38,600 nucleotides of DNA, from IMG/VR virus record IMGVR_UViG_3300032676_001573, positions 1 to 38,600 of that record; one strand, 5' to 3'. Positions 6,338 to 36,670 of this stretch are shown here, in pieces (within the stretch, counting starts at the first letter, position 1; every line of letters starts with the position of its first letter). The notes under the pieces are model-generated. The model was not told the DNA's origin and did not search any database. It was given only the letters and a program-made list of their open reading frames with translations. This DNA is from a virus. The position numbers and the translations under genes were made by a program.

Positions 6338-6339
6338 AA

Positions 6340-6759: not shown

Positions 6760-6789
6760 AAGACCTATGTATAAAAATACATAGGTCTT
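6760..6789 (-). terminator. Intrinsic terminator of the 6808-8091 gene
   Basis: A 13-bp perfect stem (AAGACCTATGTAT and its complement) with an AAAA loop is followed on the minus strand by a run of T. It lies downstream of the 427-aa gene and upstream of the gp55-like gene. Confidence 0.85.
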
Positions 6790-6807
6790 AACCGTTATTT
6801 TATTTGA

Positions 6808-8091
6808 TTAGATTTTAACTCTTTCGTTATATTGTAATTCTTTTACAGCTTGTAATTCTGTAGATAGTGCGTTTTCTCTTTTTTCTAAATTAACTAATGC
6901 AGTTGATAAAGTTTCTGATTCACCGATATATTGTAAAGATGTTTTAATTTTACTAATATTGAATTTAATATCTTCTAATTTAAGAACTATTTCTCTTTCT
7001 TTATCTTCTAATTTTCTTTTGCTAATTAATTCTTTATCTAATTTATTTTCAAAGAAATATGTTAAATCGTAATTTAAGTCATTTTTAATTTCATTTACTA
7101 TTTCTAAAACTGAATCATATTTGAATAATGAATGCCCGAATCTTTCATCGCAACGATAAATATAAGATGCGTCTTTATAATTGAATACATAAGCTTCTAA
7201 ATAAGGATTAACTATATTTGATACTTTTTTAACTATATCTAATTCCACGAATTTATCTAAATTATTTGCAGTTTCAACAATTAATGGATAGAAATTTTTA
7301 TTTATTAATGGCACAATTGGAGAATTGAATAAACTTTCTAATGTTGTTTCTTTATTTAATAAATCTTCATTGATATAAATTTGCCCTTTCTTTGATACTG
7401 ATAAGCCGATTGTTAAATTTTCTGAAATTCTAAAGTTAACTCTTTCAGCCGTGATATTTGAATACTGCATTGCAGTTGATAAAGTTCTTAATAAAAGGAT
7501 TTTGCTTTCATCTTTAACATGAGTTTCTACTAAAGTTTTTTCAATGTTATCATCACTTAAGAAAAACCATGAATCTCTAATTAAACAGATATATCCATTT
7601 TCTACTTGTTCTACTAATGTATAAATAGGTTCTCCCTTACCACCTGATAGTAAGTTAGCTCTTTGTTCAGGAGATTTTGTTAAGTTATGTACGAATAATT
7701 TAATCTCAGGAACCCAATCATAAATTGCTAATTCGTTTAATACTTTTGACATTCTATCAGAATCAGAATCTAAATTGATAGTTTGTAAGATAACGTTAAT
7801 AGGTTGTCTATAAAGTTCACCTTGATTTTTAGTATTTAATACACTATATAAATGTTTTAATTCATATACTAATTGATATTCTTTCATATCATTATTTAAT
7901 GCTTCTAAAAAAGATTTTACGCCTTTATCATAAGTATATGTTTTTAATCTTTCGTTAAGCGAAAGAACAGTTTGTTTTTCTGATATATCATTAAGAGAAC
8001 CTAGATAAGCCTCTAATATGTTAGATACTTCTTCTTGCTCAATAGATAAACTTTTACGAAAGTTAAAAATTTCCAATTTAATATTTTTCAT
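6808..8091 (-). CDS. Unknown phage protein, 427 aa, coiled-coil C-terminus
   Basis: Not recognised. It is a soluble mixed alpha/beta protein. Residues about 360-425 form a strong Lys/Glu/Leu coiled coil (KRKLEDKEREIVLKLEDIK and onward). No catalytic motif is visible. A TTTTTATATAAAATATATAC box lies about 40-60 nt upstream of the ATG. It follows the gp15-like gene on the same strand and ends at its own strong terminator. It could be a virion or assembly protein, but this is only positional. Confidence 0.65.
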   Translation of the reverse strand: MKNIKLEIFNFRKSLSIEQEEVSNILEAYLGSLNDISEKQTVLSLNERLKTYTYDKGVKSFLEALNNDMKEYQLVYELKHLYSVLNTKNQGELYRQPINVILQTINLDSDSDRMSKVLNELAIYDWVPEIKLFVHNLTKSPEQRANLLSGGKGEPIYTLVEQVENGYICLIRDSWFFLSDDNIEKTLVETHVKDESKILLLRTLSTAMQYSNITAERVNFRISENLTIGLSVSKKGQIYINEDLLNKETTLESLFNSPIVPLINKNFYPLIVETANNLDKFVELDIVKKVSNIVNPYLEAYVFNYKDASYIYRCDERFGHSLFKYDSVLEIVNEIKNDLNYDLTYFFENKLDKELISKRKLEDKEREIVLKLEDIKFNISKIKTSLQYIGESETLSTALVNLEKRENALSTELQAVKELQYNERVKI

Positions 8092-8163
8092 GAATATTTA
8101 TTATTTTTGTTATTAGTATATATTTTATATAAAAAGTCATTTATTTCTATTTTAGAAAAATAA

Positions 8164-8952
8164 TTACTCATTATTTCTTTTTTGTACTCTTAGTAAATTA
8201 CTCCACCACTTACTTTTCTTCGGATTTACTATCAAATCTTTATTATTTGATTTAAATCCATCATAATTAAAAGCATTTGACCACGTCATATTTTTATCAT
8301 TAAGTTCTAAATTACTTTTTGGTCTTCTATATGCAGGGTAATAAGTAGATACCTCAAATTGCATTGTTAATTTAAGTGAGTTGTCTGATGTCATGTTCTT
8401 TTCTCTCGAAAACTCAAGTGTTTTTGTATCAGGTAATATAATCATAGCATCTATATTCATATAATTATATTCAAATTGAATATATCTATAAAATGAAAAA
8501 GAATCTAAAATAGCTTGGCTACATTTAAAATAATCTATCTCATTTGCTAATAAAATTACTAAATCAAATTTCACACTCAAAGGAATAGCTTTAATTTTTG
8601 TTAAAACTTTTTTTATTTCCTCATTATCATCAATTACAGTTTTTAACCAAACATTTGGATTATTAAATCTATCAGATAAAATATCAAATCCAGTCATTGT
8701 TAAATGACCTCTTGGTATTTTATCAGTATTTAATTCAACATATCTATTATCAGATACAACATCATCAACAAATGAATCTAATAAAAATCTTTCATCACCA
8801 GTTAGAGAATAATAAACAGGTACTGATACTTCTATATTACCACTTGAAAATCTATTAACCCACATTAACTCGGATTCTAAAGTATCTAAAACACAAAGAC
8901 AAAGGTCTCTAAAATAAGAATCATCAAAATTCGAAACATTACCTATTGACAT
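8164..8952 (-). CDS. 15: Probable tail sheath stabiliser / tail completion protein, T4 gp15-like
   Basis: In T4, gp15 caps the contractile tail and holds the last sheath ring. Features that follow the gp15 pattern in order: GNIEVSVPVYYSLTGDE, IPRGHLTMTGFDILSDRFN, a strand-rich middle with VKFDLVILLANEIDYFKCSQ followed by ILDSFSFYRYIQFEY, then a polar loop and LTMQFEVSTYYPAYRRP near residues 205-222. Length is 262 residues against 272 in T4. The start codon overlaps the end of the homing endonuclease gene by 10 bp, so the intruding gene sits directly at its 5' end. The family call rests on remembered pattern similarity and needs a profile search. Confidence 0.5.
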   Translation of the reverse strand: MSIGNVSNFDDSYFRDLCLCVLDTLESELMWVNRFSSGNIEVSVPVYYSLTGDERFLLDSFVDDVVSDNRYVELNTDKIPRGHLTMTGFDILSDRFNNPNVWLKTVIDDNEEIKKVLTKIKAIPLSVKFDLVILLANEIDYFKCSQAILDSFSFYRYIQFEYNYMNIDAMIILPDTKTLEFSREKNMTSDNSLKLTMQFEVSTYYPAYRRPKSNLELNDKNMTWSNAFNYDGFKSNNKDLIVNPKKSKWWSNLLRVQKRNNE

Positions 8953-10235
8953 TTTTTATTTTTATTTTTAAATTCTGATTCCCATATAGAAATCACTTTA
9001 TATCCTAATTTTTCTAAATTTTCTTTTTTATTTATTGTATTATTATACAATTCTCCGAATGTCTTTTTACAAACTTGGTTATAATCATTTTCATTATATT
9101 TATTTAAATTACCATGCCAGTAATCACCATTAAATTCATAAATTATATTATTTTTATAATCAATCCCATCAACAATATATTTATCTACTTTTATTTGTCT
9201 ATTTTCTTTTGGAATAGAAAGTAAATCTAACCATTCATTTTCTGTAGTGTAAAAAGTTCTTGAACATTTTTTACACCCTGAATTTTTATGTAAATGATAT
9301 GACGCATTTGTTGTAAAATATCCATGTATTTTACAACCTAAAGTAATTTTATCATAAATACCATTATATACTAATTTATCATAAATAAAACTATCTCCAT
9401 ATTTTTTTATTGATAAATCAATAAAATCTTGTTTAGAGTGTAAATTTTTACATTTTTTACAACCATAACCATTAATATGATTAATTGCTCTTTGTTTAAA
9501 GTTTCCGTGTATTTTACAATTTATTTCAACTAAATCTTCATAATTTAATAATGTTTTTATATTATCATATGAATATTTATCATTGTGTATTTGTTTACTT
9601 TTTAAAAGAAAATTTTCTAATCCTTTTCTTAAATTATTATGATAGCACAATTTACACCCGCAGCCTTGTAAATGGCAGGTAGGTGTCATTTCAAAAATAC
9701 CATGTTCTTTACATATTATAGGAACTTTTATATTTGCTTTTACAAAATTAACTAAAGAATAATCATACATATTACTATGTAATAGATTTGCTTTCTCAAT
9801 AAAAACATCATTATTTAAAAAACTTTTACCTATACTATTACATTTAGGACACCCGCCTGTTATAGAATCTAAATGTTTTTCTGGAGTTTGTAAAAACTCT
9901 TCATTATGTTTTTTACAAGTAATAATTATTTTACTTTTCTTTTTAATATAAATTACTTTTGAATAATCATATTTATCTCCATGTTTAGATACAAATCTAT
10001 TTATTAATTCATTTATATCTAATTTACGATTAACACTATTTTTAATTAAAGAACATTTTGGGCATCCACATTTATAATGAGATGCTGCATTTTGTTCAAA
10101 ATCACCATGTTCTTTACAAGTAATAATTAATTTATTCTTATTACCTGTATAGATAGTTTTTGAATATTCATAACTATTATTATGAATAAACCTAACTTTT
10201 TCTATGTATTCTTCTTGTGTTAATTTTTTTGACAT
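8943..10235 (-). CDS. Homing endonuclease, Vsr/EDxHD type with five zinc-binding repeats
   Basis: This is a selfish DNA endonuclease. About residues 1-330 hold five tandem units, each with C-x2-H followed about 20 residues later by C-x2-C (for example CKEHGDFEQ with CGCPKC, and CKIHGNFKQ with GCKKC). These are DUF723-type zinc-binding repeats likely to read DNA. The C-terminal nuclease has YEFNGDYWHGN and, after a helical segment, YKVISIWESEFKNK, the Vsr-like fold of EDxHD homing endonucleases. All five zinc units look intact and the Glu-Asp-His residues are present, so it is probably active. It is inserted immediately upstream of the gp15-like gene (10-bp overlap). Confidence 0.85.
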   Translation of the reverse strand: MSKKLTQEEYIEKVRFIHNNSYEYSKTIYTGNKNKLIITCKEHGDFEQNAASHYKCGCPKCSLIKNSVNRKLDINELINRFVSKHGDKYDYSKVIYIKKKSKIIITCKKHNEEFLQTPEKHLDSITGGCPKCNSIGKSFLNNDVFIEKANLLHSNMYDYSLVNFVKANIKVPIICKEHGIFEMTPTCHLQGCGCKLCYHNNLRKGLENFLLKSKQIHNDKYSYDNIKTLLNYEDLVEINCKIHGNFKQRAINHINGYGCKKCKNLHSKQDFIDLSIKKYGDSFIYDKLVYNGIYDKITLGCKIHGYFTTNASYHLHKNSGCKKCSRTFYTTENEWLDLLSIPKENRQIKVDKYIVDGIDYKNNIIYEFNGDYWHGNLNKYNENDYNQVCKKTFGELYNNTINKKENLEKLGYKVISIWESEFKNKNKKCQ

Positions 10236-14636: not shown

Positions 14637-15641
14637 TTATATTTTATTAGTAAAAGTATAATTATTTATTTGCTTTCTATCCCCATTAATTATTCTGCGT
14701 ATAATCTTAATGTCTATATTAAGAATCTCTGATGCATCATAAACATTATTAAAAGTTTGAATAATATTATTATTTAAATCTAATTGAGATACTTTTTTTG
14801 ATATTTTTCTTCTATCCCATTTTCCTACTTTATATTCTTTTAATGTAGAGAAAAATATATACTTTCTTTCTAATCTTAAATTTTCAGAATCTTTATACAT
14901 TGAATCATATATAATTTTTAAATCTTTAAATGAATAATATAAAATAGAACATAAACCATTTATATCAGAATTATTAATTTTTATACTTAATTTAGTATCA
15001 CTTAATCCATATTCTAAAAATACTTTTTTTATTTTATTTATTATTAAAGTAGAACCTACTAAATCAAATCTTAATCTACCTTCTTTATTATTATTTTCTT
15101 TAGAAATAGAACCATCGCCATCAAATAAACCTCTTAAAAAATGCCAAAATAAATCTGAATTTATTTCAGGTAAATCACAAGTAAAAGATTTATTATTAGT
15201 AATTCCTAAATTATTTAAATGTTTAACTATTAATTTAGAACAAATATGTAATGTATATCGAGTATATGTTTTATTAGTTCTTTTATCAAATGTTTCTACT
15301 TTACATATTTTATGCTCTGATTCAATCTTTTCTTTAAATAATTCAACTAAATCTAAATCTTTTGATATAAAACTGAAACCATATCCTGTATTATCTATAC
15401 TACCATCAGAAAGTATTAGACCTATTAAATAGGCTTTTTCTTTTGTATCTATTTTTTCAAAAAAATTTTCATTTAATGCTCTTTTTCTATTTGATCTAAT
15501 CTCAATATTATTTTTTAATAAAATTTTCTTTACCTGAGTAGTTCTAGTTGGTGTTCCATATATTTTTGATATTTCTACCAAATTTTTACCTGATTTATAT
15601 AATTCTAAAACATGCTCTTCATTAAATTTTTGTAATTTCAT
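14637..15641 (-). CDS. LAGLIDADG homing endonuclease (free-standing)
   Basis: Residues about 5-45 form a helix-turn-helix (NLVEISKIYGTPTRTTQVKK). Two LAGLIDADG helices follow: YLIGLILSDG (71-80) and FLRGLFDGDG (168-177), both with the catalytic acidic residue. A C-terminal NUMOD1-like DNA-reading helix pair (VYDASEILNIDIKIIRRIIN) ends the protein. It is 334 residues with no intein splicing blocks, so it is a free-standing mobile endonuclease rather than part of an intein. A TTTTTTAATATATAAAATT box lies 12 nt before the ATG. Its 3' end almost abuts the membrane-protein gene. Confidence 0.88.
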   Translation of the reverse strand: MKLQKFNEEHVLELYKSGKNLVEISKIYGTPTRTTQVKKILLKNNIEIRSNRKRALNENFFEKIDTKEKAYLIGLILSDGSIDNTGYGFSFISKDLDLVELFKEKIESEHKICKVETFDKRTNKTYTRYTLHICSKLIVKHLNNLGITNNKSFTCDLPEINSDLFWHFLRGLFDGDGSISKENNNKEGRLRFDLVGSTLIINKIKKVFLEYGLSDTKLSIKINNSDINGLCSILYYSFKDLKIIYDSMYKDSENLRLERKYIFFSTLKEYKVGKWDRRKISKKVSQLDLNNNIIQTFNNVYDASEILNIDIKIIRRIINGDRKQINNYTFTNKI

Positions 15642-16338: not shown

Positions 16339-16956
16339 ATGTCAACTTGTAAAGAAAATAAAAAATTATATGATAAAGAATATAGAAAAAGAAATAAAGA
16401 AAAATTAAGAGAACAAAAAAAAGAATGGGTTAAAAATAATCCAGATAAAGTTAAAGAAAGTAGAGTAAGAAATAAAGAATCAAAAAAACTAAGTGATAAA
16501 AAATATTCTATTAGAAATAAAGAAAAGTTAAATGAATATAAAAAAGAATGGGCTAAAAATAATCCTGATAAAGTAAAAGAATCAAATTTTAAATATCATC
16601 AAAATAAAATGATAAATGATAAACTTTATAAATTAAAACATTTAACAAGTAATATTATTAGAGATTCTTTTAAAAGAAAGGGGATTTCAAAAAATTATAG
16701 AAGTGTTTATATATTAGGTTGTACTATAGACTTTTTTAAAAATTATTTAGAAAATAAATTTGAAAGTTGGATGAATTGGGACAATTATGGCAATCCTATT
16801 GATGGTTTAATAGAGCCAAATAAAACATGGGATATAGATCATATAATACCATTATCAAATGCTACAACAGAGGAAGAAATTTTTAAATTAAATCATTATA
16901 CTAATTTACAACCTTTATGTAGTTATCACAATAGATTTATTAAAAAAGATAATTAA
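16339..16956 (+). CDS. HNH homing endonuclease
   Basis: The C-terminal nuclease has WDIDHIIPLSNA, then LNHYTNLQPLCSYHNRFIKK: the DH, N and HN residues of the HNH beta-beta-alpha-metal site are intact. The N-terminal half is a Lys/Arg/Asn-rich helical region with an internal duplication (KKEWVKNNPDKVKES and KKEWAKNNPDKVKES, about 43 residues apart), probably a DNA-binding arm. Length is 205 residues. A CTTTTAATATATAAAA box lies about 20 nt upstream of the ATG. It sits between the HAD and ClpS genes, as an inserted mobile gene would. Confidence 0.85.
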   Translation: MSTCKENKKLYDKEYRKRNKEKLREQKKEWVKNNPDKVKESRVRNKESKKLSDKKYSIRNKEKLNEYKKEWAKNNPDKVKESNFKYHQNKMINDKLYKLKHLTSNIIRDSFKRKGISKNYRSVYILGCTIDFFKNYLENKFESWMNWDNYGNPIDGLIEPNKTWDIDHIIPLSNATTEEEIFKLNHYTNLQPLCSYHNRFIKKDN

Positions 16957-18716: not shown

Positions 18717-21700
18717 TTAATAATATTTTTTACCATGCCAATCTATACTTCTTTCATAAGTATATGATGTAGCATTTTTCCTTCTGCGATTAACATTTAT
18801 TAATGCAGAATAATCCGAAACTTCTTTAGCTTCACTTGAATTATTTATTATATTATTAATATAATTTAATACATCAGTTGGTAACTCTTTACTAAAATCT
18901 TGTATCATCTCTTTATAATCATAACGACTAAATATAGATGAAGCATTTACTAATGACATAGCACAATTATGAACAACAATACCATCAGCAGTATAACTAT
19001 TATCATCTTCTACTTCTAAATTATATGTTAATCCTTCATATTGATATTTTTCTGATTTTTCTATTAAAGATCCATATTCGTAATTGTTAAACTTTAATAA
19101 ACTTGAAGACTTTGGTCTATTTTCATATATAGTAACCCAATATTGGTCTTTTGTATCTTTATTATATCTTTTTCTTTTATATTTATTTATCAAAGCCCAA
19201 TATCCTAAAGACATAGCAATATCTCTCATACCTAGTGCTAATTTTTTACTTATACTACAACCAATTTTTTTATCTTTTCTATTATTTTTACCTTTTCTAA
19301 TCCAACCATCCCCTTTTAACCAATATTCTAATACATATTTTAGATCTTTTCCTAAAGTATAAGCATAATATGGTATAATTTTTTCTTTTTCACAATAACA
19401 AAAGTTTAACACTTCAGCATAAAATTTACTATTAAAAGATAAATTAGTTGATTTTTTCTTTTTATTATTAAACTCTTGTGTATTAATACCTAAATTTTCT
19501 AAATAATTTTTTATTTCATTAATTAATTCTATTTGACTTGAATTAAAAGCAATTGTAATTCTATAAAAATCATCTTTAATATATACGTTACCATCTGCTA
19601 AAAAAAGTCCTAAAAATTTAGCAAAATTAGAATCTAATATAATTTCTTTTTGTTTGATATTATCTACATAAGAATATTTATTTAATTCAAAAAAATCTTC
19701 CCATTTTAATATTACATTTTTATTATCTTCTAAATTTTCAATAATTGAAACACATCTTCTTTTTGCTTTAAAATTTTCTGGCAAAACCCATTCTCTATTT
19801 GTATAATTATTATAATTCCCTTTTTTACAAATTTTTCTACTATAATTAATATTAGAAGCATATATAGGATGATTATATGTTATATCTAATTCTAATTGAC
19901 CTTTGAATTTTAGTTTATACATATCCCCTTTGAAATTTTTAATACATTTATTAATAACTTTTTTATAATTACCTAAATGAGTTAAAACTAAATCCCCTAT
20001 TTCTATATCTTTAATATATTTATATCCTTTATTAGTCATTATTATAGAATCTTCTTTTAAACAATCATCATGACCAATATCCGCAGCATATCTAACATTA
20101 CCTGCTGATGTTATATGTCTAACAAATGTAGTTATTTCTTTGATATTATCTTCATTAGTTATATTAAAATTTCTTTTGTTCATATTTTCTTGATAATCTT
20201 TAACCAAAAGATTTTTATTATCTCCTAATTTTAACCCTACTTTTTCTTCACTTGAATCCATTCTATGTTTATATCTAAAAAATATACCAGAACCATAATT
20301 ATTACTACCATCAAATACATGCGGTAAATGAGCTAAAAACTCACTACCATAAGTATTCGTTTCTAATACTACTCTAAACTTTTCATAATCAAAATATTCA
20401 AAAGCTAACATATAAAATAAATCTGCTAATTGTTTAACAGAAATTAAATTAGACCTATATAATCCAATTTGTTCTAACCAAAAGAAATCACTAAAATCAT
20501 ATAAATTAGATTTTTGAGCTTCAATTAATTCTATAGGTTTTAACGCTATTCTAAATATATTTATAATAGTATAATCTTGACCTAAACCTTCCGATATATC
20601 AATTGACATTATACCTTTAGTATTTTTACGATTAGCATGATTAAATGTATCCTCATCAACCCATGTTAAGTCTCTATAACTAAATCTTAATTTATCATCA
20701 AACATAGGTATATCTCTATACTCAAAATGTTTTTTACCTTTAATTAAAGTATCAATAACACTTTCACTTAATATAGAACGAGTTGCGTTAATAAAACGTA
20801 AACCATATTCTTGGTTAAATGCATCTTCTCCACCTATATTTTTTATAGAATCTTCTTTCCATGTAGAAACATCACATGCTAATTGAATAGGTGTTAATAC
20901 ATTATTATTGTCATAAAATTGAAAAGATTTTGTTAATTCTTCAGGACATAGTTCATTATTATGAATTGCTATAGTTTCTTTTTCTATTTCGGCATCAAAC
21001 TTTTTTTCTACTTTAGTTAAATGTGAAAAGTTAGCTATAACTTGCTCATATAAAGATTCTTCTGTTAAACCAAATTTAAATAATTTAACAGGGTTTAATC
21101 TATAAAATGTCAAGAATCTTCCTGGTACTTGATACCAATATATTCTTAATGCTTTAAACTGATTTTTTTGCGGATCGCCTTCAGGGCGTTCCGCATCGGT
21201 TAATAATCTATAAAATAGATTCATTCCATTAGGTGTTGATGTAATAATTATTTTTGAGTTTTCTACAGCAGATACTACGGGATAAACTGCTTGGTAATAA
21301 GGTTCAATAATATTAGAAGGAATGTGTGCAAATTCATCTAAGTATAAAAAGTCTATCGTAAAACCGATAGCGGGAGTTCTACTTCTTGCAGCTGTTTTAA
21401 TACGACAACCATTTTCAAATATCATTGTTCTTTGGTTCCAGTTTTTAATACCTACTTTAAGGAAGAATGGAAGGTGAACATATATAGATTTAATTTTATC
21501 TACAATTTCAATTGTTGTACTGGCTATGTTAGCCACAATCATAATATTTTTATCGTTGTTAAATGTTACAAAGTGTAACATGGTAATTGCTGCATTAATT
21601 GTATTATGACTTAATATACCATTTGTATAAAATCTATGATTTGGATCATCAATAGTAAAATCAAACATACTAACTGATGAATTATATTTTACTATATTTA

Positions 21701-22040
21701 TAACTTTTTTATTACCATATTTTGTAAATAATAAATCTCCTTTTTTTAAATCTTTACAAAATACTTCTTCTAAATTGTTAGTAAATAAAATATGATTATC
21801 AGCACATTCTAAAAATAAATTATTTTCTAAAACAATTTTATATACTTTATAAGGTTGTGTTAGATGTATATCAGTAGCTTTAACAAACCCGTTATCAGAT
21901 TCTACTCTTATATCTAAATTCGATATAGTATTTAATATTTTTTTATTTATATCATTTTGATCTAATGATAAATTCCTATATTCATAATTTTCAATTAAAT
22001 TTATTAATTTATAAATTATTTTTATTATTATTTTTTTCAT
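18717..22040 (-). CDS. 17: Terminase large subunit, C-terminal part, with C-intein at its start and a second complete intein
   Basis: It encodes most of the DNA-packaging motor. Residues 1-146 are the C-half of a split intein ending SHN before Thr147. The extein continues TINAAITMLHF, completing the Walker A broken in the upstream fragment (GSRQIGK plus T). Walker B is FLYLDEFA (Asp235, Glu236), and the coupling motif is IIITSTPNG (264-272). The nuclease domain has GIMSIDISEGLGQDY (Asp481), VVLETNTYGSEF (Glu560) and ADIGHDD (658-659), matching the three catalytic carboxylates of T4 gp17. Residues 660-1025 are a complete intein inserted directly after that HDD. After both splicing events the motor would be about 716 residues (121 + 595), against 610 in T4. 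It must be joined in trans to the product of 23609-24139. Confidence 0.92.
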   Translation of the reverse strand: MKKIIIKIIYKLINLIENYEYRNLSLDQNDINKKILNTISNLDIRVESDNGFVKATDIHLTQPYKVYKIVLENNLFLECADNHILFTNNLEEVFCKDLKKGDLLFTKYGNKKVINIVKYNSSVSMFDFTIDDPNHRFYTNGILSHNTINAAITMLHFVTFNNDKNIMIVANIASTTIEIVDKIKSIYVHLPFFLKVGIKNWNQRTMIFENGCRIKTAARSRTPAIGFTIDFLYLDEFAHIPSNIIEPYYQAVYPVVSAVENSKIIITSTPNGMNLFYRLLTDAERPEGDPQKNQFKALRIYWYQVPGRFLTFYRLNPVKLFKFGLTEESLYEQVIANFSHLTKVEKKFDAEIEKETIAIHNNELCPEELTKSFQFYDNNNVLTPIQLACDVSTWKEDSIKNIGGEDAFNQEYGLRFINATRSILSESVIDTLIKGKKHFEYRDIPMFDDKLRFSYRDLTWVDEDTFNHANRKNTKGIMSIDISEGLGQDYTIINIFRIALKPIELIEAQKSNLYDFSDFFWLEQIGLYRSNLISVKQLADLFYMLAFEYFDYEKFRVVLETNTYGSEFLAHLPHVFDGSNNYGSGIFFRYKHRMDSSEEKVGLKLGDNKNLLVKDYQENMNKRNFNITNEDNIKEITTFVRHITSAGNVRYAADIGHDDCLKEDSIIMTNKGYKYIKDIEIGDLVLTHLGNYKKVINKCIKNFKGDMYKLKFKGQLELDITYNHPIYASNINYSRKICKKGNYNNYTNREWVLPENFKAKRRCVSIIENLEDNKNVILKWEDFFELNKYSYVDNIKQKEIILDSNFAKFLGLFLADGNVYIKDDFYRITIAFNSSQIELINEIKNYLENLGINTQEFNNKKKKSTNLSFNSKFYAEVLNFCYCEKEKIIPYYAYTLGKDLKYVLEYWLKGDGWIRKGKNNRKDKKIGCSISKKLALGMRDIAMSLGYWALINKYKRKRYNKDTKDQYWVTIYENRPKSSSLLKFNNYEYGSLIEKSEKYQYEGLTYNLEVEDDNSYTADGIVVHNCAMSLVNASSIFSRYDYKEMIQDFSKELPTDVLNYINNIINNSSEAKEVSDYSALINVNRRRKNATSYTYERSIDWHGKKYY
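18966..20063 (-). other. Complete intein with LAGLIDADG endonuclease, in the terminase nuclease motif
   Basis: These are 366 residues (660-1025 of the C-terminal terminase gene). The first residue is Cys after HDD. Block A is CLKEDSIIMTNKGYKYI, block B has LDITYNHPIY (Thr and His of TxxH), and block F/G is SYTADGIVVHN, followed by +1 Cys. The endonuclease domain lies in the middle with FLGLFLADGN (809-818) and VLEYWLKGDG (903-912). All splicing residues are present, so both splicing and homing look intact. The insertion point lies between the third nuclease aspartate pair and the following helix (CAMSLVNAS). Confidence 0.93.
21603..22040 (-). other. C-terminal half of split intein (146 aa) on the terminase C-gene
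   Basis: Residues 1-146. It opens with a hydrophobic basic helix (MKKIIIKIIYKLINLIENYE), then SDNGFVKATDI, block B-like LECADNHILF (His83), block F with FDFTIDDPNHRFYTNGILSHN and the terminal Asn146 before Thr147. Because block B is in this half, the break lies between blocks A and B, which is atypical. No endonuclease domain is present. Remembered relatives are the atypically split TerL inteins from metagenomes (AceL-TerL). Confidence 0.9.
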
Positions 22041-22103
22041 ATATAAATGAACTTTTTTAATATATATTATATTATCTAATATACCTTAAAAAACAATGAT
22101 AAA

Positions 22104-22550
22104 ATGAAAAATAATTTAAAAGTTTATAAAAACATAGATAAAAAATTTTTAATAAATTTTATAGAAAATAATATTACAGAAAATAATAAAGAAATAATAG
22201 ATATGATAAAAAAATCTATATTAGTAGATAAAGAAGTTTTATTAAGAACAATTTTTGATAAACTAAATATAGATTCAATAATATTATCTGTTAATAAAAT
22301 GGATAATAATAAAGGTTTTGATATTTTATTTATGACCATAACTGATAGTATAGAGTTTTCAACTACTTCTGTTTTTGCTAGCTCTTTTTTAAATTATAGA
22401 AATGAATTGAATAGAAAGAAAATAGAAATAGAAAAAAATTATCCTAAAAAAGAGTATTTAATGATTAATAATCAAATGGATATCTATCTTAATGAAATAG
22501 ATTCTGCTTTAAAATCTTTATCTATCGAAAATTTATTAAATAGCTATTAA
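22104..22550 (+). CDS. Unknown 148-aa protein inserted, inverted, within the fractured terminase locus
   Basis: Not recognised. It is Lys/Asn/Ile-rich and helical, with a conserved-looking middle (DSIILSVNKMDNNKGFDIL, then FMTITDSIEF). It begins MKNNLKVYKNIDKKFLINF, a weak match to the shared N-terminal signature. It is the only plus-strand gene between the two terminase halves and ends at a bidirectional terminator shared with the homing endonuclease. It may be cargo brought in with the endonuclease or an older resident; the sequence does not say which. Confidence 0.6.
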   Translation: MKNNLKVYKNIDKKFLINFIENNITENNKEIIDMIKKSILVDKEVLLRTIFDKLNIDSIILSVNKMDNNKGFDILFMTITDSIEFSTTSVFASSFLNYRNELNRKKIEIEKNYPKKEYLMINNQMDIYLNEIDSALKSLSIENLLNSY

Positions 22551-22551
22551 T

Positions 22552-22580
22552 AAAAAACCACGATTAAATCGTGGTTTTTT
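22552..22580. terminator. Bidirectional intrinsic terminator
   Basis: The stem ACCACGAT/ATCGTGGT with a TAA loop has flanking A6 and T6. It serves the convergent 148-aa gene and the homing endonuclease, whose stop codon lies in the loop and stem. Confidence 0.87.
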
Positions 22581-23580
22581 CAATTCCTAAAAAATTTAAA
22601 CATTTATTTAATGTTTCTTCTTTATTTTTCTTATACTCACTATCCCATATAGTTAAAACTTCAAAACCTTCTTTAATAGCATCTTCTGTTTTTCTCCTGT
22701 CTTTATCCCATATTAGTTCAGCTGTTAAACCTCTTTTTATATTAAAATTATGTGATATATCATTAGCTTTATATATTTTCGGATTAGCGTGATATTGATC
22801 CCCATTATATTCTATTATTTTTTTATTTTTTAAATCAACAAAGTCATAAATCCATATTCCTGATGTTGAACGATTTATCCTAAATTCCCCTTTACTATTA
22901 AATTTATTTGTAGCATAATATAAATTGCATATTTCACTTTCATTATAATAAGTAATTATAATGTTAAATAATTTTTGACTTATTAAAGAGTAACCTCCTT
23001 TCAGATTACCATTTTCTAAAAGACTTTTTTGCCATTTATTTTGTCTATTGGTAAATAATTTTTTACCTTCGTCTTCTCCATATTTCTCAATACATATTTT
23101 TTCACTAAAGGTCCTTTGTCTTTTAGACAACATTTTTTCAGCTACTTCTTCATTATAGCCTTTATCTAAGTAATATCTTATAGAGGTTGTTAATACTCTA
23201 TCTTTAAGAGCTTCTTGAACAAAGAATTTTCTTTGTTCATCAGTTTTATCATCTTTATACTTTATAAAATCTTTTGAAAAGGGTGATCTTGAGCGTCTTT
23301 CTTCTTCAGTAGTTTTTGATACATGATTTGGATTATTTTCTCCAGAAAATTTTTCAGAAAACATTTTTTTATATTTCTCCTCTTTCATATGTTTTCCCAT
23401 TTTTTCGGTATCTTTTTTAGCCATTAAAGGAGCATTAGGAAACTTTTTTAAGTAATCTTCTGAAGTCATACCATGAGATTTTAAATGACCTCCATATAAC
23501 CTTTTTGATTGCTTACCACATTCTCTACAAGTTACAAATTCATATGAATCATTTATAACTATCTCATTTTTTAAAATCAT
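22564..23580 (-). CDS. Homing endonuclease, Vsr/EDxHD type, between split terminase halves
   Basis: The N-terminal zinc finger is of MucR/Ros type (Cys18, Cys21, His32, His36, in TCRECGKQSKRLYGGHLKSH). A linker follows with GENNPNHVSKTTEEERRSRS (NUMOD-like), then a helical region with repeated EKYGED-type turns. The C-terminal nuclease has WIYDFVD, IIEYNGDQYHANP (Glu257, Asp261, His264) and, about 50 residues on, GFEVLTIWDSEYKKN. This is the Vsr-like fold used by the free-standing endonucleases described in fractured genes with split inteins. It starts 29 nt after the N-terminal terminase fragment ends and has its own TTTTTAATATATAAAT box. It most likely homes into the intact-intein or intein-less allele. 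Confidence 0.88.
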   Translation of the reverse strand: MILKNEIVINDSYEFVTCRECGKQSKRLYGGHLKSHGMTSEDYLKKFPNAPLMAKKDTEKMGKHMKEEKYKKMFSEKFSGENNPNHVSKTTEEERRSRSPFSKDFIKYKDDKTDEQRKFFVQEALKDRVLTTSIRYYLDKGYNEEVAEKMLSKRQRTFSEKICIEKYGEDEGKKLFTNRQNKWQKSLLENGNLKGGYSLISQKLFNIIITYYNESEICNLYYATNKFNSKGEFRINRSTSGIWIYDFVDLKNKKIIEYNGDQYHANPKIYKANDISHNFNIKRGLTAELIWDKDRRKTEDAIKEGFEVLTIWDSEYKKNKEETLNKCLNFLGIEKTTI

Positions 23581-23600
23581 AATTTTTATTCATTTTATGA

Positions 23601-23614
23601 TTTATATATTAAAA
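23601..23614 (-). promoter_or_regulatory. Late-type AT box of the homing endonuclease
   Basis: On the minus strand it reads TTTTTAATATATAAATC; TATAAATC is 7/8 to the T4 late -10 octamer. It lies 20-35 nt before the ATG and overlaps the stop of the terminase N-fragment. Confidence 0.5.
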
Positions 23615-24139
23615 AGTTTGGCTCCCCTCAAATTGGAATAATTTTTTATAAAGAAATAATTTTATTTTTTCTAAAAAAGTCAAAGGTCTAATCTTTTTTA
23701 ATTCTTCATAATAAATCATTCCTATGATTTTTTTGATGCCATTTTCAAATAAAACTTCTGTAGTAAAGGAAAAACATTTACCTATCTGACGACTACCACA
23801 TAGAATAGATTTTCTATTTTGATATAATTCTAATATATCTATTTGATAATCTCTTAGTGTTAGATTTTTAATACTACCATCTTCAACTTTAATTTTACAA
23901 TATTTTTGTGCAAAGTATTTTATATCTGTTTTACATTTAATATATTCTGCGATTTCTTCAGGAGTCATTGCGAAGGTTATACCTGCTCTCCTATTTCCTA
24001 TTTCATTTTTGAACCAAGGATTTTGATAACGTTTTAATACAATACCATCATTTAATTTCTGTGTTAATTCTTCAACTAGTTCTGAGTTAAAGACAAATTT
24101 CCTTAATTCTTCTTCGTCTATCTTTGTGCTTTTAGCCAT
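23609..24139 (-). CDS. 17: Terminase large subunit N-terminal fragment fused to N-intein
   Basis: It is 176 residues. Residues 1-121 are the N-terminal packaging ATPase: FAQKYCKI, then LTLRDYQIDILELYQN (the adenine-binding region of TerL) and ILCGSRQIGK, a Walker A that stops at its lysine. Residues 122-176 are an N-intein starting CFSFTTEVLFENGIKKI and ending in a helical, Lys/Phe/Leu-rich tail. The missing Walker A Thr is supplied by the gene at 18717-22040. Without splicing this fragment has half a P-loop and cannot hydrolyse ATP. It is divergent from the small terminase candidate. Confidence 0.93.
   Translation of the reverse strand: MAKSTKIDEEELRKFVFNSELVEELTQKLNDGIVLKRYQNPWFKNEIGNRRAGITFAMTPEEIAEYIKCKTDIKYFAQKYCKIKVEDGSIKNLTLRDYQIDILELYQNRKSILCGSRQIGKCFSFTTEVLFENGIKKIIGMIYYEELKKIRPLTFLEKIKLFLYKKLFQFEGSQTF
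23612..23776 (-). other. N-terminal half of split intein (55 aa)
   Basis: It has Cys1 (TGT at 23774-23776), block A CFSFTTEVLFENG, then a helical tail (PLTFLEKIKLFLYKKLFQF). Only block A is present, so the break comes before block B. The amphipathic tail mirrors the hydrophobic, basic helix at the start of the C-half, so the two could pair. Confidence 0.9.
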
Positions 24140-30511: not shown

Positions 30512-33500
30512 ATGCCAACAATTCAAATAGGACAATATACAAGACCAGGTATATATATTAATGAGTATGACAATTCAATTTTACCAAACGTTGTAGCACC
30601 AGCTGGGAATTATACGTTAGTAATAGGTTTCTCTAAGATAGGACCTGTTAACACACCAGTTTTGTTACAAAGTCAAAATGATTTAATAAATATATTTGGA
30701 AATATTGATAGAACCTTAGAAAGAAATGGTTCTTTCTTCCATAGAACAATTCAACAAATGTTATTATCAGGTCCGGTTTATGCTCTAAACTTATTAGAAA
30801 CTGATGATACTTTAGATCTATTACAATATGCTTCACTTTCAACAGCTTGTAATTATCCTAACTACATTAATTCTAATGGTGCTCCTTATAGCAATTTCTT
30901 TAATACAACAGGTTTCTGGAAAAAAGATACTGAATCATTTAACTATTTAGCTAATGATGAAGCAAATGGTAGTACTGATGGAAATAATCTTAATAGATTA
31001 TTTAACATTACTAATATGAGTGGTAATTATGTAACATTATTTATATACAAAACACAAACAACTTCTTATAACAATAGTCTAATTAACTACTATGGTTCTA
31101 TTGAAAATATTCCTCCATACTTAAAAGCTACAGATTGGGCTTCTGATTATATGGTTGATGTATTAGCAGTAGCTGGTGATTGGTCTAACTATACTGCTTT
31201 ATCAGTTGATCCTAGATGGAACAAATATTTTGATGGAACAGGTCTTAAAAAAGGTCAATTATCAAACTTTGCTGCTGATAGAAATGTAAGTGTATTATCA
31301 TTTTACTCTAATCTTTCTTTCATTCCTTATTTCACTGATTTAAGTGGTAATAACTTATTTATTGAAACTATAATCAATAATGATTTTGCAAACACAGGAT
31401 TATTCTGTGCATTTAATATGGACTTATATGAAACTGGATTTGCTAATGGTTTAGTTGATTTAGTAGGTAATTCAATTGATTCAACAGAATCTATTGACTT
31501 TTTATCTTATAAAGATACAATTGTTGAGAATGTTGAATTTACAAATACTTATTTAGACAGACCAGGTAATGTATTCGGTATTGATATATTAGGAAATCAA
31601 AGATTCACAGGAGCTTTTGGTAGAGATTTTACAAATTCTGAAGGTTATGTAAATAATATATTTCTATCAGCTACTCCTTCTTCTTATACGCAATTTGCTG
31701 GATTTTCTACATATTCTGCACCAACAACTGGATATTTTCCAGGTATTACAGCATCAGGTAATACTATTTATTATGGAATTACAGCAGGGTTAACTGCTTC
31801 AATTAATGTTATTAATTATGGAACTAGTGTATTAGTTACACCTTCTTATTTAGGAAGCAATTTAAATGGTATTAATGGAACTACAATTTCTATATCATCA
31901 ACTATATTTGGAGCAACTGTAACTGCAACTGCAAGTGCTATTGCAAGTGTAAATATAACTGGATTAACTTATTCTGGATTATCTTATAGTTATTTTAATT
32001 TATCAAGTGCTGCTCCTGGATTAACATTAGGTTTTACAATTTCTGCATCAACTGCATCAACTGCTTCAACTGCAATTGCCTCAGATATAGTTAAAAATTG
32101 GAACTTATCATATGGTACCTCTACTGGATATACTATGAGTGTTAATGGTTCTATAATATCATTAGGATACACTAATGGTGGTACTGCAGCTAATGGTTAT
32201 ACTTTTTCAATTAATATTGAAAAAGGTATTACATCATCATTGTTTATTAGTTCAACCTTTTCTGGAGGCTCATCATATAACGCTTTAGCTAATCCTTTAA
32301 TATTAACATTAAATTATCAAACTGAATTTACTCCATTAATATATAATGTAAATTCAGGAGCATATGCTATATCTAATGGAACATACATAACTGTATCAGC
32401 AGGGAATTATTCTTTTAATGTAAATCCTGCTTCCTACTCAGCAATAGGTGAATATGAAACCGCTATTGTATTAAATAATAGTGGTATTAATGCGTTATCT
32501 TCTACAGTACCTGGATTATTAAACCCAAGCGTTCAGCCAACAGATATTGTATTAGGTTATATGGATTATATTATAAATGGTAATGGAAGGTTATCATCAT
32601 TAACATTTAGTCAAGTTACAGTTGGTACTGCTGGATATATAGAACTTGTTAATGGAACAGATTATGTATATAATATTAATAACGGAATATTGAGTTTAAC
32701 TTATTCTAATACAGCTGTATCACCTAATGTTAATCAGTATTTAACATATAGAAAAATAAAATCTTTTAATTATTTATTATCAATTATAAGTAGTTCTAAT
32801 TTTAATAATGGTTGCATTTTATATTCAACAGGGGTTAATGCTTTAATTAATAGTACAAATAATATGAATTTAATTTCATATAATAATTCAAATCTAAGTA
32901 ATAAAAACATATCTATTAATTTAGGATTAACAACAACAAGTATTAACCAAATAGTTTTTTATATAAAAGATGATGAATTAGTAATTGGAGCTCAGGGTAT
33001 GGTAACAAGTGATAATTTACCTATTACATCTTTAACTGGATCTGTTAGATATCAATCATCATTTTATCAAGATTATTATAATGGTGATATAAATACTGGA
33101 GATTATTTCTATGATAATGCAATATCTGGATTAACAACAAGTGTAACACTTAATTTTGTTAATGGTAATAATTATGTTTTATTTACAAATCTTACAACAC
33201 CATTATCAACTTATTTAAACCAAATAGGAACATCTTTTATTTTACCTGATTCTAATTTAAATAATTTCACATTAACTATTGCTAATCCTCTTACAATTAG
33301 TGCTACATATGGTTATTTAGTTAACACAGGACAAAATAATATAACAAATGAAGTAATAGCTTCAACAGGAAATGTATATTTAACAAATACTCAATTCACA
33401 CATAATTTACAAATGGAATTTAATGGTGTAAATGATAATTTATTAAATGTTAAATTTGTAGAAAGTGATAATCAAACTTTATTACCAATTCCTTTAAATT

Positions 33501-34885
33501 TAGGATTTACATTACCAACTTTATTAGATGTAACATCTTATGATGGTGATTATAAAGAAAGTGTAGAAATTATAAGTTTTATTAATGATAATACAATTTC
33601 AGTAGATGGGTCAAGATATTCTAATATCCAAGTAGGAGATTTCTTATCAGCATATGTAGATCCTACAATAGTATTAGAAGTAGGTGAAGTGCCTAAGAAA
33701 ATAACAAGAATCTTAACAAGAAAAGTTAATCCTTCTGATAATACTCAAATATTACTATCTTGTGATTCTAAAGTTGATTCTAAAACTTATAATGGGGTTA
33801 TGGAAACAACAAGATATTCTTCAATTGATAATTATGTATCAACATATAAGGGTATTTCTCTTAAAGGATTTAGAATGAGAAATGCTTCAATACCTGATGG
33901 AACAGAAGCAAGACAATCATCAATACTTGATTTAGTTGGAAAAGGAACACCATTATTTGAAGCTTTATCAAATAAAGATGCAATTGATTTCAGATATTTA
34001 ATTGATTCATTTGGTTTAGGTTTAACAGAATACTCAAAACAACAATTAGTTGATATTTGCGGAGAAAGATTAGATTGCTTTGGTTTCTTAAACATGCCTT
34101 CAATGAAACAATTTAAACAATCAGCATCACCAACATTTATAGATGCTAATGGAGTATTACAAACAAGCTACATTGCAGCAGGTGGTAATTTAGACAAAAA
34201 CCCAGCATTCTTATATTCTTTCGGTATAGGTAGAGGTACAACTTGTGTAGGTTATTTCACTCCTTATGTAACAGTTAGTGATAATGGTAGACCATTCGAT
34301 GTTCCACCAGCAATGTTTGTAGCTACAACTTATATGAAGAAAATAAATGCAAACTCATCTTCTATAACTCCTTGGACTATAGCAGCAGGTATAACAAATG
34401 GTAAAATAAGTGGTTTTGGTAAAACTGAAATTGACTTTACACCACAAGACATTTCTAATCTTAATATGGCTCAAATGAACCCTATTGTATATAAAAAGAA
34501 TAGAGGTTATGTTATTGAGACTGAAAATACAGGTCAAACTGATTATAAATCATCATTATCATACATTCACTGTAGAGAAGTGTTGATTGAATTAGAAAGA
34601 GATTTAAGTGCAATGTTATTAGATTTCCAATGGAAATATAACACAACACAAACAAGAGCAGAAATCAAACAAAGAGCTGATGCTATTTGTAGCACATATG
34701 TAAGTAAAAATGGTTTATATAACTACTTTAACAAGTGTGACCAAGAAAATAATACTCAAATTATCATAGATAATCAAATCGGTGTATTAGATACTTATGT
34801 AGAAATTATTAAGGGTATGGGAGTAATTGTTAATAATATAACAATCCTTAAGACAGGAGCAATTGCTTCAGGTGGTTTCCAATAA
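30512..34885 (+). CDS. 18: Tail sheath protein, gp18-like, with a very large central insertion (1457 aa)
   Basis: This is the contractile sheath subunit. The N-terminal core starts with YTRPGIYINEYDNS and VIGFSKIGPVNTP, classic sheath N-terminus features. The C-terminal core has the polymerisation domain (GRGTTCVGYFTPYVTVSDNG, then TPWTIAAGITNGKISGF) and ends with LDTYVEIIKGMGVIVNNIT. Between them, about residues 370-990 are a Ser/Thr/Gly/Asn-rich, charge-poor region of beta-type sequence with runs such as SASTASTASTA and GLTYSGLSYSY. T4 gp18 is 659 residues, so the protein is more than double in size; the insertion must project from the sheath surface. It is preceded by TTTTTATATATAAG and followed by a strong terminator. 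Confidence 0.92.
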   Translation: MPTIQIGQYTRPGIYINEYDNSILPNVVAPAGNYTLVIGFSKIGPVNTPVLLQSQNDLINIFGNIDRTLERNGSFFHRTIQQMLLSGPVYALNLLETDDTLDLLQYASLSTACNYPNYINSNGAPYSNFFNTTGFWKKDTESFNYLANDEANGSTDGNNLNRLFNITNMSGNYVTLFIYKTQTTSYNNSLINYYGSIENIPPYLKATDWASDYMVDVLAVAGDWSNYTALSVDPRWNKYFDGTGLKKGQLSNFAADRNVSVLSFYSNLSFIPYFTDLSGNNLFIETIINNDFANTGLFCAFNMDLYETGFANGLVDLVGNSIDSTESIDFLSYKDTIVENVEFTNTYLDRPGNVFGIDILGNQRFTGAFGRDFTNSEGYVNNIFLSATPSSYTQFAGFSTYSAPTTGYFPGITASGNTIYYGITAGLTASINVINYGTSVLVTPSYLGSNLNGINGTTISISSTIFGATVTATASAIASVNITGLTYSGLSYSYFNLSSAAPGLTLGFTISASTASTASTAIASDIVKNWNLSYGTSTGYTMSVNGSIISLGYTNGGTAANGYTFSINIEKGITSSLFISSTFSGGSSYNALANPLILTLNYQTEFTPLIYNVNSGAYAISNGTYITVSAGNYSFNVNPASYSAIGEYETAIVLNNSGINALSSTVPGLLNPSVQPTDIVLGYMDYIINGNGRLSSLTFSQVTVGTAGYIELVNGTDYVYNINNGILSLTYSNTAVSPNVNQYLTYRKIKSFNYLLSIISSSNFNNGCILYSTGVNALINSTNNMNLISYNNSNLSNKNISINLGLTTTSINQIVFYIKDDELVIGAQGMVTSDNLPITSLTGSVRYQSSFYQDYYNGDINTGDYFYDNAISGLTTSVTLNFVNGNNYVLFTNLTTPLSTYLNQIGTSFILPDSNLNNFTLTIANPLTISATYGYLVNTGQNNITNEVIASTGNVYLTNTQFTHNLQMEFNGVNDNLLNVKFVESDNQTLLPIPLNLGFTLPTLLDVTSYDGDYKESVEIISFINDNTISVDGSRYSNIQVGDFLSAYVDPTIVLEVGEVPKKITRILTRKVNPSDNTQILLSCDSKVDSKTYNGVMETTRYSSIDNYVSTYKGISLKGFRMRNASIPDGTEARQSSILDLVGKGTPLFEALSNKDAIDFRYLIDSFGLGLTEYSKQQLVDICGERLDCFGFLNMPSMKQFKQSASPTFIDANGVLQTSYIAAGGNLDKNPAFLYSFGIGRGTTCVGYFTPYVTVSDNGRPFDVPPAMFVATTYMKKINANSSSITPWTIAAGITNGKISGFGKTEIDFTPQDISNLNMAQMNPIVYKKNRGYVIETENTGQTDYKSSLSYIHCREVLIELERDLSAMLLDFQWKYNTTQTRAEIKQRADAICSTYVSKNGLYNYFNKCDQENNTQIIIDNQIGVLDTYVEIIKGMGVIVNNITILKTGAIASGGFQ

Positions 34886-34981: not shown

Positions 34982-36670
34982 ATGGATTTAGAAATTTTTA
35001 AAAAAAGTGATCCTTCTGGAAGTATGTGTAAAGAAAAATCTTTGTTAAAAACATATCCAAAGGAATATGAATATATTATTGATTATTGTATAAATAATGA
35101 ATTAGAAGATTTACCTTTTAAAGAAAAAGTTTTTATTTCTGTCAATAATTTAAAAGAAGTTCCTAAATGTAAAAATAATAATTGTAGTAATAAAGTAAAG
35201 TATAAAAATTCAACAATAGGATATTTAACTTATTGCTCTAATAAATGTATAAGTTCAGATGAAAATATAAAAAAATATAAACAAGAAAAATCTATTGTTA
35301 AATATGGAACTAAAACCCCTGCTGAATCATTAGAAATAAAACAAAAAATTATAAAAACAAATTTAGAAAAATATGGGGTTAATTCTGCTATGTGTTTAGA
35401 AAAAACTCAAGAAAAATCTAAACAAACTTTATTAAAAAATTGGGGTGTAGATAACCCTAATAAATCAGAAGAATTAAATAAAAAAAGAATAGAAAGTTTT
35501 AAAATAAGTGATTTTAAAGAAAATTTTAAAAAAACATCCATTGAAAAATATGGAGTTGAACATCATTGGATGATAAAAGAAATACATGATAAATCAATTG
35601 ATGTTTTTTATTCTGATTATAAAAAAAGAATAATAGATAAAATTAATCAAAATGATTATGAATTTAATGGTTTTAATAAAAATATAACTACATATTTAAA
35701 ATTTTTTTGTAAAAAATGTAATACTAATTTTGAGATATTAACTTATCAATTTTATTATAGAGTCACTAATAATACTAGTATATGTACTAATTGCTTTCCT
35801 ATATCAGAAAGTTCAAGTATTAAACAAATTGATATTTATAATTTTATTAAAGAAAATTATAATGGAGAAATTATAGTAAATACTAAAGATTATATTAATC
35901 CGTATGAAATTGATATTTATTTACCAGAATTAAAATTAGGGTTTGAATTTAATGGGCTATATTGGCATAGTGAGAAATTTAAAAAAGAAGAATATCATTT
36001 AATAAAAAAACAATTAGCAGAAAAAAATAATATTAATTTATTTACTATATGGGAAGATGATTGGGTTATTAAAAAAGAAATCTGTAAATCATATATTCTA
36101 AATAAGTTAAACTTAACATCTAAAATAGGAGCACGTAAATGTGTAATTAAAGAAGTTGATTATACAACTTCTAAAAATTTTTTAGATAGGAATCATTTTC
36201 AAGGTGATTGTAAATCATCAATAAGAATTGGGTTATATTATAATAATGAATTAGTTAATCTAATGACATTTTCTAAATTAAGACTTCCTTTAGGTGGAAA
36301 AAATCAAGAACATGTTTATGAGTTAACCCGATATTGTAATATAATAAACACTAATATAATTGGCGGAGCTTCCAAATTATTAAAATATTTTATTGATAAA
36401 TGGATTCCAATTAGAATAGAAACTTATTCAGATAATTTAATTTCTAATGGAAATATGTATGAAAAATTGGGTTTTACTTATTTACATACATCTAAACCTG
36501 GATATTGGTATGTAATTGATAAAAAAAGAGAACATAGGTTTAATTGGAGAAAATCTAAGTTAGTCAAAATGGGTTATGATATAAATAAAACTGAAGAAGA
36601 AATTATGCTAGAATTAGGATATTATAGAGTATATAATGGCGGCAATAAAAAGTGGATTTTTTTATTATAA
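34982..36670 (+). CDS. Large homing endonuclease: zinc site, Vsr-like nuclease, GNAT-like C-terminus
   Basis: A 562-residue mobile endonuclease. Near residue 60 it has a zinc site (PKCKNNNCSNKV, then YCSNKC). Then come repeated helical turns (KYGTKTPAES, KYGVNSAMCL, NWGVDNPNKS, KYGVEHHWM), like NUMOD-type DNA-reading units. A second zinc pair (FCKKCN, ICTNC) precedes the nuclease core, which has EIDIYLPELKLGFEFNGLYW (then HSE) and INLFTIWEDDW. The last 190 residues look like an acetyltransferase-type fold (NFLDRNHFQGDCKSS, YEKLGFTYL). The second acid of the EDxHD pattern is replaced (FNGLYWH rather than FNGDYWH), as in Hef-type relatives. It is inserted directly after the sheath terminator with its own TTTTTAATATATATG box. 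Confidence 0.8.
   Translation: MDLEIFKKSDPSGSMCKEKSLLKTYPKEYEYIIDYCINNELEDLPFKEKVFISVNNLKEVPKCKNNNCSNKVKYKNSTIGYLTYCSNKCISSDENIKKYKQEKSIVKYGTKTPAESLEIKQKIIKTNLEKYGVNSAMCLEKTQEKSKQTLLKNWGVDNPNKSEELNKKRIESFKISDFKENFKKTSIEKYGVEHHWMIKEIHDKSIDVFYSDYKKRIIDKINQNDYEFNGFNKNITTYLKFFCKKCNTNFEILTYQFYYRVTNNTSICTNCFPISESSSIKQIDIYNFIKENYNGEIIVNTKDYINPYEIDIYLPELKLGFEFNGLYWHSEKFKKEEYHLIKKQLAEKNNINLFTIWEDDWVIKKEICKSYILNKLNLTSKIGARKCVIKEVDYTTSKNFLDRNHFQGDCKSSIRIGLYYNNELVNLMTFSKLRLPLGGKNQEHVYELTRYCNIINTNIIGGASKLLKYFIDKWIPIRIETYSDNLISNGNMYEKLGFTYLHTSKPGYWYVIDKKREHRFNWRKSKLVKMGYDINKTEEEIMLELGYYRVYNGGNKKWIFLL

Follow-up and report, generated by a model that had tools for sequence, protein, structure and literature searches.

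The closest described systems are the atypically split inteins AceL and GOS and the engineered intein Cat. According to the accessible part of PMC13014065, natural atypical inteins have an N-terminal half (IntN) of 15-37 amino acids (aa), and those of AceL and GOS TerL are broken at the position called S2. The accessible part of PMC11766414 gives the sizes of the halves (IntN and IntC, the C-terminal half) as 25/104 for AceL, 37/115 for GOS and 30/104 for Cat, all with Cys at +1. It calls AceL-TerL a low-affinity intein and describes the association of Cat through clustered hydrophobic residues. The subject here is a split intein in the large terminase gene (terL, protein TerL) of a virus, on a stretch of 38,600 nucleotides (IMG/VR record IMGVR_UViG_3300032676_001573, positions 1 to 38,600), which is called the window below. 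Both halves of this intein carry a helical arm, and the two arms may form a hairpin at whose tip the intein is split.

Like AceL-TerL, GOS-TerL and Cat, as far as these sources describe them, the window's intein has a TerL host, a short IntN, and an S2 break after alpha1, between blocks A and B. The C-half of Cat (CatC, 6dsl_B) also matches positions 38-145 of the C-half alignment profile. Unlike them, the window has an IntN of 55 aa, outside the range of 15-37 aa, and an IntC of 146 aa with a 35-residue helical head. Its +1 residue is Thr, at Walker A, instead of Cys. Because of their Cys+1, the three inteins probably occupy another insertion site. By its break position the window's element can be placed as an intein near the atypically split TerL inteins; since IntN length and +1 residue differ, it is not an AceL or GOS allele. 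VidaL (6vgv) is the best fold match of a contiguous relative, but its IntN has 16 aa and is split at S1, according to the accessible text of PMC13014065, and its chain in 6vgv has only 145 residues.

Contiguous and split inteins at or near the same place also occur in cultured phages. Salmonella phage Maynard (Ackermannviridae) has an annotated contiguous TerL mini-intein, Cys110-Asn268, whose C-part is related (in Kuttervirus relatives the identity is about 34%; it is 33.7% between Maynard and L089, a contiguous relative of the window's intein). Unlike the window's, it lies in one gene with no nuclease gene inside. The intein of the Kuttervirus dinky follows RQSGK, the same place in the P-loop, but by reading its letters it has no hydrophobic hairpin. 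Fractured genes are reportedly made of two halves with split inteins and a free-standing nuclease gene between them, as in the window. They are said to be split at the usual endonuclease site; the window's intein is split at the tip of a predicted S2 hairpin.

In Agrobacterium phage Atu_ph07, the TerL genes ASV44708 and ASV44707 lie 11 bases apart and are broken between K and S of GRQLGK-S. As in the window, the split is at the Walker A Lys and both halves have helix-like ends; unlike the window, position 1 is Ser, the IntN is shorter and no nuclease gene lies between. A term search did not find the word intein in the accessible text of the Atu_ph07 genome paper. The cultured jumbo phage Salicola phage SCTP-2 (MF360958.1) has TerL in three annotated pieces on both strands, at 429748-429356 (minus), 256428-257321 (plus) and 218077-215993 (minus), the first two being about 172 kb apart on the record. 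An arm-less split intein forms its first junction. The end of the middle piece reads like a second IntN, and the second junction looks like another split intein.

The split gene and its empty sites

The reading-frame list and translations give terL in the window as two minus-strand genes, cut inside Walker A between K and T of GSRQIGK-T. The split intein has 55 + 146 residues. The N-gene (24139-23609, minus strand, 176 aa) codes for an N-extein of 121 aa and the IntN of 55 aa. The C-gene (22040-18717, minus strand, 1107 aa) codes for the IntC of 146 aa, 513 aa of extein, a second intein of 366 aa and 82 aa of extein. The IntC ends in NGILSHN (to 21603), followed by TINAA. The parts are as follows.

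23777..24139, minus: TerL N-extein, 121 aa, ending in GSRQIGK (Walker A up to Lys); phrog_5989, E 7.7e-18
23612..23776, minus: IntN, 55 aa, with Cys1, block A, alpha1 and a helical tail
23627..23683, minus: helical arm of IntN, LTFLEKIKLFLYKKLFQFE, conserved in relatives, corresponding to helix 47-59 of the contiguous homologue L058
21603..22040, minus: IntC, 146 aa, with a helical head, block B ECADNHILF, blocks F and G, ending in SHN
21936..22040, minus: helical head of IntC, MKKIIIKIIYKLINLIENYEYRNLSLDQNDINKKI, corresponding to helix 64-78 of L058
20064..21602, minus: TerL C-extein part 1, 513 aa, starting with T+1; PF03237, E 1.5e-14
18966..20063, minus: second intein, contiguous, LAGLIDADG type, 366 aa, after DIGHDD
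18720..18965, minus: TerL C-extein part 2, 82 aa, starting with Cys+1

Both exteins fall in T4-type or other TerL families by PHROG, and the C-extein also by Pfam, where the N-gene has no match. A search of the window's record with PF03354 gave no match; PF03237, another terminase family, fits. The IntC matches PT-HINT with E 2.1e-4, below that profile's cut-off. The catalytic residues of the intein are intact: the nucleophile Cys1, the block B His (ADNH), the block F Asp and His (MFDF..HRF), the His-Asn at the C-terminus (SHN) and Thr+1. The break lies between blocks A and B after alpha1, the S2 position as defined in the accessible part of PMC13014065.

Further evidence is provided by alleles without the insertions. 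Two other contigs, L003 and L004, have an uninterrupted terL with neither intein. Over the three extein parts they are 99%, 98% and 96% identical to the window in amino acids, with both junctions at the window's codons, as expected of an in-frame insertion. At the DNA level L003 was compared with L001, the window's near-identical contig (99.9% over 16.5 kb). Around the first site the two flanks overlap by 4 bases and show identities of 97.4% and 96.2%. The alignment at the second site leaves out 4 bases and continues in a far flank with 92.2% identity; directly after this junction L003 codes for Leu, the window for Cys. A 276-kb contig, L005, has only the split intein with its nuclease gene and no second intein, and of the two inteins L006 and L014 contain just a relative of the second. 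A chance open frame can be excluded as the origin of the split intein, because PHROG and Pfam place the exteins in TerL and because L003 and L004 have the uninterrupted gene with junctions at the same codons. An intron was also considered, and was set aside in view of the intein blocks in the inserted residues and of the in-frame empty sites.

Junctions, TerL profiles and empty sites thus agree with an earlier note on this DNA, which had proposed a TerL split inside Walker A by an atypically split intein. Its reading of the break between blocks A and B holds too, block B being in the C-half, and the product of about 716 residues that it expected equals the sum of the exteins without the second intein (716 aa, by arithmetic). 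The junction peptide predicted for spliced TerL is ..GSRQIGKTINAA... The element is likely a working, naturally split intein of class-1 type that rebuilds the phage's TerL. Packaging would then depend on trans-splicing; the note offered this as new, but every split TerL intein implies as much, and the dependence is therefore not of a new kind.

Alternatively, the gene may be broken, with an intein that no longer splices and another terminase in use. The window, a linear record of 38.6 kb, lacks end repeats; the terL locus is complete, but the phage itself probably is not, and any further genome lies outside the record. An uninterrupted TerL does not occur among the listed frames of the window, and in the 29-kb contig behind L001 TerL matches are confined to the two gene pieces; a contiguous terminase elsewhere, which the earlier note had named as the finding that would count against it, is thus absent from both. 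Related records do offer a candidate. Five of 24 contain a second TerL-like frame with the ATPase only (a 61-aa match in LR756500 is not counted), which speaks for a broken gene. The four such frames that were read (L197 355-1527, L198 275-1174, L199 357-1094, L200 233-1045) have no nuclease domain and have lost the Walker A Lys, with SRQMGI(T/S) or SLESGVN in place of SRQxGK(T/S). In the fifth record (the contig of L138) the main TerL is uninterrupted, and therefore the ATPase-only frame is not tied to the intein. With these losses, with exteins 96-99% identical to uninterrupted alleles and with intact catalytic residues, a broken gene is very improbable.

Relatives and helical arms

The IntC has 201 relatives among 249 IMG/VR pattern matches (alignment A1, 12 rows), of which the best 80 were taken. 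The N-side has at least 478 among the matches listed (alignment A2), and again the best 80 were taken. Four relatives came from the genome collection. A profile of the IntC core gave 139 matches at 20 bits or more, 100 of them different; several loci are overlapping pieces of one contig. Filtering the IntC for TerL, at least 30 residues before the core and less than 90% identity left 71 rows. Filtering the IntN for Cys1 and a length of 44-75 residues also left 71 rows, with lengths of 46-72 aa (median 54), shorter IntN being excluded by construction. Going by these relatives, the window's phage shares its arrangement with others, and its intein belongs to a large family in which a 55/146 split is typical. 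The sizes given in the earlier note are correct, but a split of this kind, which it put forward as new, is common among these relatives.

Some members differ in their splicing residues. Three Erysipelotrichales/Firmicutes metagenome-assembled genome contigs (L194 4260-4874, L195 5404-7896, L196 5177-5845) carry inteins at this TerL site that lack a cysteine nucleophile: position 1 is Thr in L194 and L196 and Ser in L195, and the +1 residue is Ser. Thr at position 1 of an intein would be unusual. Contiguous inteins at the same Walker A site in L019 (Krischvirus MIZ4, 268 onward) and L171/L172 (6103 onward) start with Ala and possibly belong to another splicing class.

The relation between the two arms can be seen in seven contiguous inteins at the same site, which have both arms in one chain of 192-215 residues (L058, L085, L089, L095, L104, L190, L195). 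In an AlphaFold2 model of the L058 intein (predicted local distance difference test 88.8, predicted template modelling score, pTM, 0.83), the chain has helices 31-42, 47-59 and 64-78. The last two are the arms, and they form a helical hairpin beside the Hint domain. The alignment used for folding had 61 rows: 7 contiguous inteins, 33 C-halves and 21 N-halves. The N-halves were trimmed before the arm, because an untrimmed mixed alignment stacked the IntN arm on the IntC arm. The Hint fold is seen on this model only, in matches to VidaL 6vgv (Z 20.4, root-mean-square deviation 2.0, 141 residues aligned) and CatC 6dsl (TMt 0.81) from a whole-chain search, where one domain can fill the list. In sequence, CatC, VidaL and gp41-1 match the C-half profile only from about position 37-43; therefore the head has no counterpart there at the level of sequence profiles. 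On the predicted fold, the split point is the tip of the helical hairpin. No description of hairpin-armed split inteins was found in the literature searched, which did not cover the original split-intein papers, so this is no proof of absence.

In most of the TerL members examined, the end of the IntN is helix-like (e.g. RKLTFLEKIKxxLYKLYxKL) and so is the start of the IntC (e.g. LKxxIxxLIxxIEkyEYRNLxLDxNDIxKKI). Arms were compared in 78 loci with different IntC cores and both halves. They are long on both halves in 67, short on both in 7 and mixed in 4 (L063, L064, L068, L159); in the mixed loci a full head can be read upstream of the first ATG, which was taken as the start. A Fisher test on this pairing treats related loci as independent and is not usable as a probability. 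The short/short loci, whose IntN has 32-40 aa, are two of TerL (L031, L112), three of ATPase genes that look like gp46/SbcC (L105, L108, L114) and two Clp-like (L030, L111), where the gene names are a reading of the letters with no search behind them. The TerL genes of L031 (7218-11321) and L112 (3641-7000) have a second split-intein C-half downstream, and are probably each in three gene pieces.

The ratio of nonsynonymous to synonymous substitution rates (dN/dS), from 12 pairs drawn from 69 loci, is 0.26 (0.15-0.43) for the IntN arm and 0.23 (0.15-0.34) for the IntC arm, beside 0.30 (0.22-0.39) for the IntN core and 0.15 (0.11-0.19) for the IntC core. These values indicate that both arms are under purifying selection. 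They also bear on the idea that the halves form a two-chain ATPase held together non-covalently, without splicing. The arms alone could perhaps hold the chains together, but the break lies inside the P-loop, between Lys and Thr, and the IntC core is under purifying selection across the family; such an ATPase is extremely unlikely.

A different view of the arms themselves is that they are membrane-seeking or aggregation-prone segments, or vestiges of nuclease insertion, and that the Hint halves associate hydrophobically as in Cat. The C-arm is indeed strongly hydrophobic in some members (L026 MINLLKGIILILIGFIE, L028 FFILLIIQLIE), arm-less split relatives exist, and the clustered hydrophobic residues of Cat, in the accessible text of PMC11766414, offer a precedent. 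However, both arms are under purifying selection and are present or absent jointly, natural contiguous inteins keep both without a nuclease gene between, and the L058 model has them as a hairpin. Arms without a docking role are thus unlikely.

The break point and the nuclease gene

The position of the break can be followed by comparing split and contiguous members. Homology between L091 (split) and L089 (contiguous) runs to L091 4868 = L089 6003 and begins again from 6012 = 6009, with 78.6% and 73.7% aligned DNA identity on the two sides. Thus L091 has 1143 bases at the hairpin tip and L089 has 5. A nuclease gene lies inside the 1143 bases; its ATG overlaps the stop codon of the N-half (ATGA), and the ATG of the C-half follows 2 bases after the nuclease's two stop codons. 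In the pair L194/L195, which is similar, 28 bases of L195 stay outside the alignment. The fit is looser for L025/L058, where this applies to 68 bases in the arm region of L058. Contiguous L095 has flanks 94-96% identical to those of L091 and a different hairpin, which suggests an exchange at the hairpin.

How often each arrangement occurs was counted in 72 pairs with different cores and with halves on the same strand within 14 kb. For 46 of the 72, the gap contains a match to the window's nuclease or is overlapped by one; in 17 of the 72 the gap is below 200 bases, L062 being counted there with a wrong gap value. In L062 (5773-7872) the nuclease frame runs without a stop into the TerL C-half. 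The nuclease of L023/L024 is on the opposite strand. The halves can also be far apart, taking the records as assembled. In LR756501, of 735,411 bases, 12.4 kb separates them, a stretch that has 13 frames of 120 aa or more, some on each strand. In L090 the N-half (11813-11313, minus) and the C-half (5926-8136, plus) are on opposite strands of one contig. A term search found the words intein and split absent from the accessible text of PMC7162821, on a 735-kb genome. TerL-based phage classification can, as LR756501 with its TerL in two pieces suggests, meet a truncated marker.

In the most far-reaching reading, with a rough probability of 0.5, the S2 helical hairpin serves homing-nuclease genes as a landing pad and the halves as a docking module, with repeated transitions between contiguous, nuclease-split and nuclease-free split forms, whose halves may separate. 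The explanation favoured here is likely and runs as follows. The two TerL pieces would be made separately. The arm at the IntN end and the arm at the IntC start would come together in the same antiparallel hairpin that the contiguous relative has, at S2 after alpha1. This pairing would dock the short N-half, and the Hint fold would close. Trans-splicing would then form the P-loop GSRQIGK-T, and cis-splicing of the second intein would restore the DIGHDD-C motif near the C-terminus. As to the origin, a VSR-type nuclease gene would have been inserted at, or lost from, the hairpin tip; later the nuclease could be lost and the halves could move apart. The tip would tolerate a cut or a nuclease gene because the arms could still find each other. 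Indirect support for association through the tails, which the earlier note had suggested, comes from conservation and co-occurrence of the arms, purifying selection, the contiguous relatives and the L058 hairpin.

Several points limit the favoured explanation or weigh against it. To account for the seven contiguous rows, the core tree (94 rows labelled contiguous or split) requires seven changes of state. This number is soft, because the tree is built on few columns, is unrooted and has 41 of its 91 inner branches open; its group table gives 1 change, between contiguous and seven other labelled rows with 80 rows left out. The tree does not tell fission from fusion. The seven arm-less loci form one group in it (SH-aLRT 86), and a single event or a few may therefore account for the arms occurring together. 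The L058 model is of a contiguous relative, with the N-arm resting on seven rows. In the window, a hydrophobic moment as high as that of the C-arm occurs in 0.018 of shuffles, but that of the N-arm is ordinary (0.293 of shuffles). Of the amphipathic tails described in the earlier note, the conserved helical arms and the amphipathic C-arm thus stand, and an amphipathic N-arm is unsupported by the moment. Finally, other atypical split inteins, with an IntN too short for an arm, are reported in the accessible part of PMC11766414 to associate by hydrophobic residues, and therefore arms are not needed by the fold as such.

Accounts of how natural split inteins arise usually start from finished examples. 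In this family joined, nuclease-at-break, nuclease-free split and widely separated forms all occur, sometimes in close relatives, and the route to split inteins is therefore testable with real intermediates. The arms could also serve protein engineering as a natural docking handle for atypical split inteins.

Genes between and around the halves

The earlier note had left out two genes that lie between the halves of terL. They and a repeat next to them are:

22564..23580, minus: VSR-type nuclease gene, 338 aa, with a ROS/MucR-like N-terminus and a DUF559-like C-terminus
22552..22580, no strand: perfect 14-nt inverted repeat AAAAAACCACGATT/AATCGTGGTTTTTT after the nuclease gene
22104..22550, plus: 148-aa frame between the nuclease gene and the C-half, in opposite orientation

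The 338-aa nuclease is a probable homing endonuclease. It matches phrog_22677 (E 5.8e-22), which itself has no named function, and 26 phage records, in several of which the matched protein is annotated as VSR endonuclease; it thus has VSR-like relatives in sequence. A search of PDB sequences with it gave Ros alone (E 0.84). Its model (pTM 0.48) was compared with Foldseek, which gave 1cw0 (prob 0.99, E 0.083) and 3r3p (prob 0.93, E 0.21), outranked by three unrelated mitoribosomal proteins and with nothing at E 0.001, so that the fold match to VSR/I-Bth0305I is suggestive only. The inverted repeat is a possible two-way terminator, and a terminator scan of the window did not report it. A promoter scan was uninformative, with 22 sites against 19.5 expected from shuffles. 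The 148-aa frame had no match outside the window's phage among the loci compared.

Relatives of the second intein are 52% (L006) and 50% (L014) identical to it. The window has four further nuclease-like genes, at 8943-10235, 14637-15641, 16339-16956 and 34982-36670, of the types DUF723/DUF559-like, LAGLIDADG, HNH-like (below cut-off) and DUF7487. Finally, the frame at 30512-34885 is a tail sheath gene of 1457 aa, whose best sheath profile matches are in the last 400 residues.

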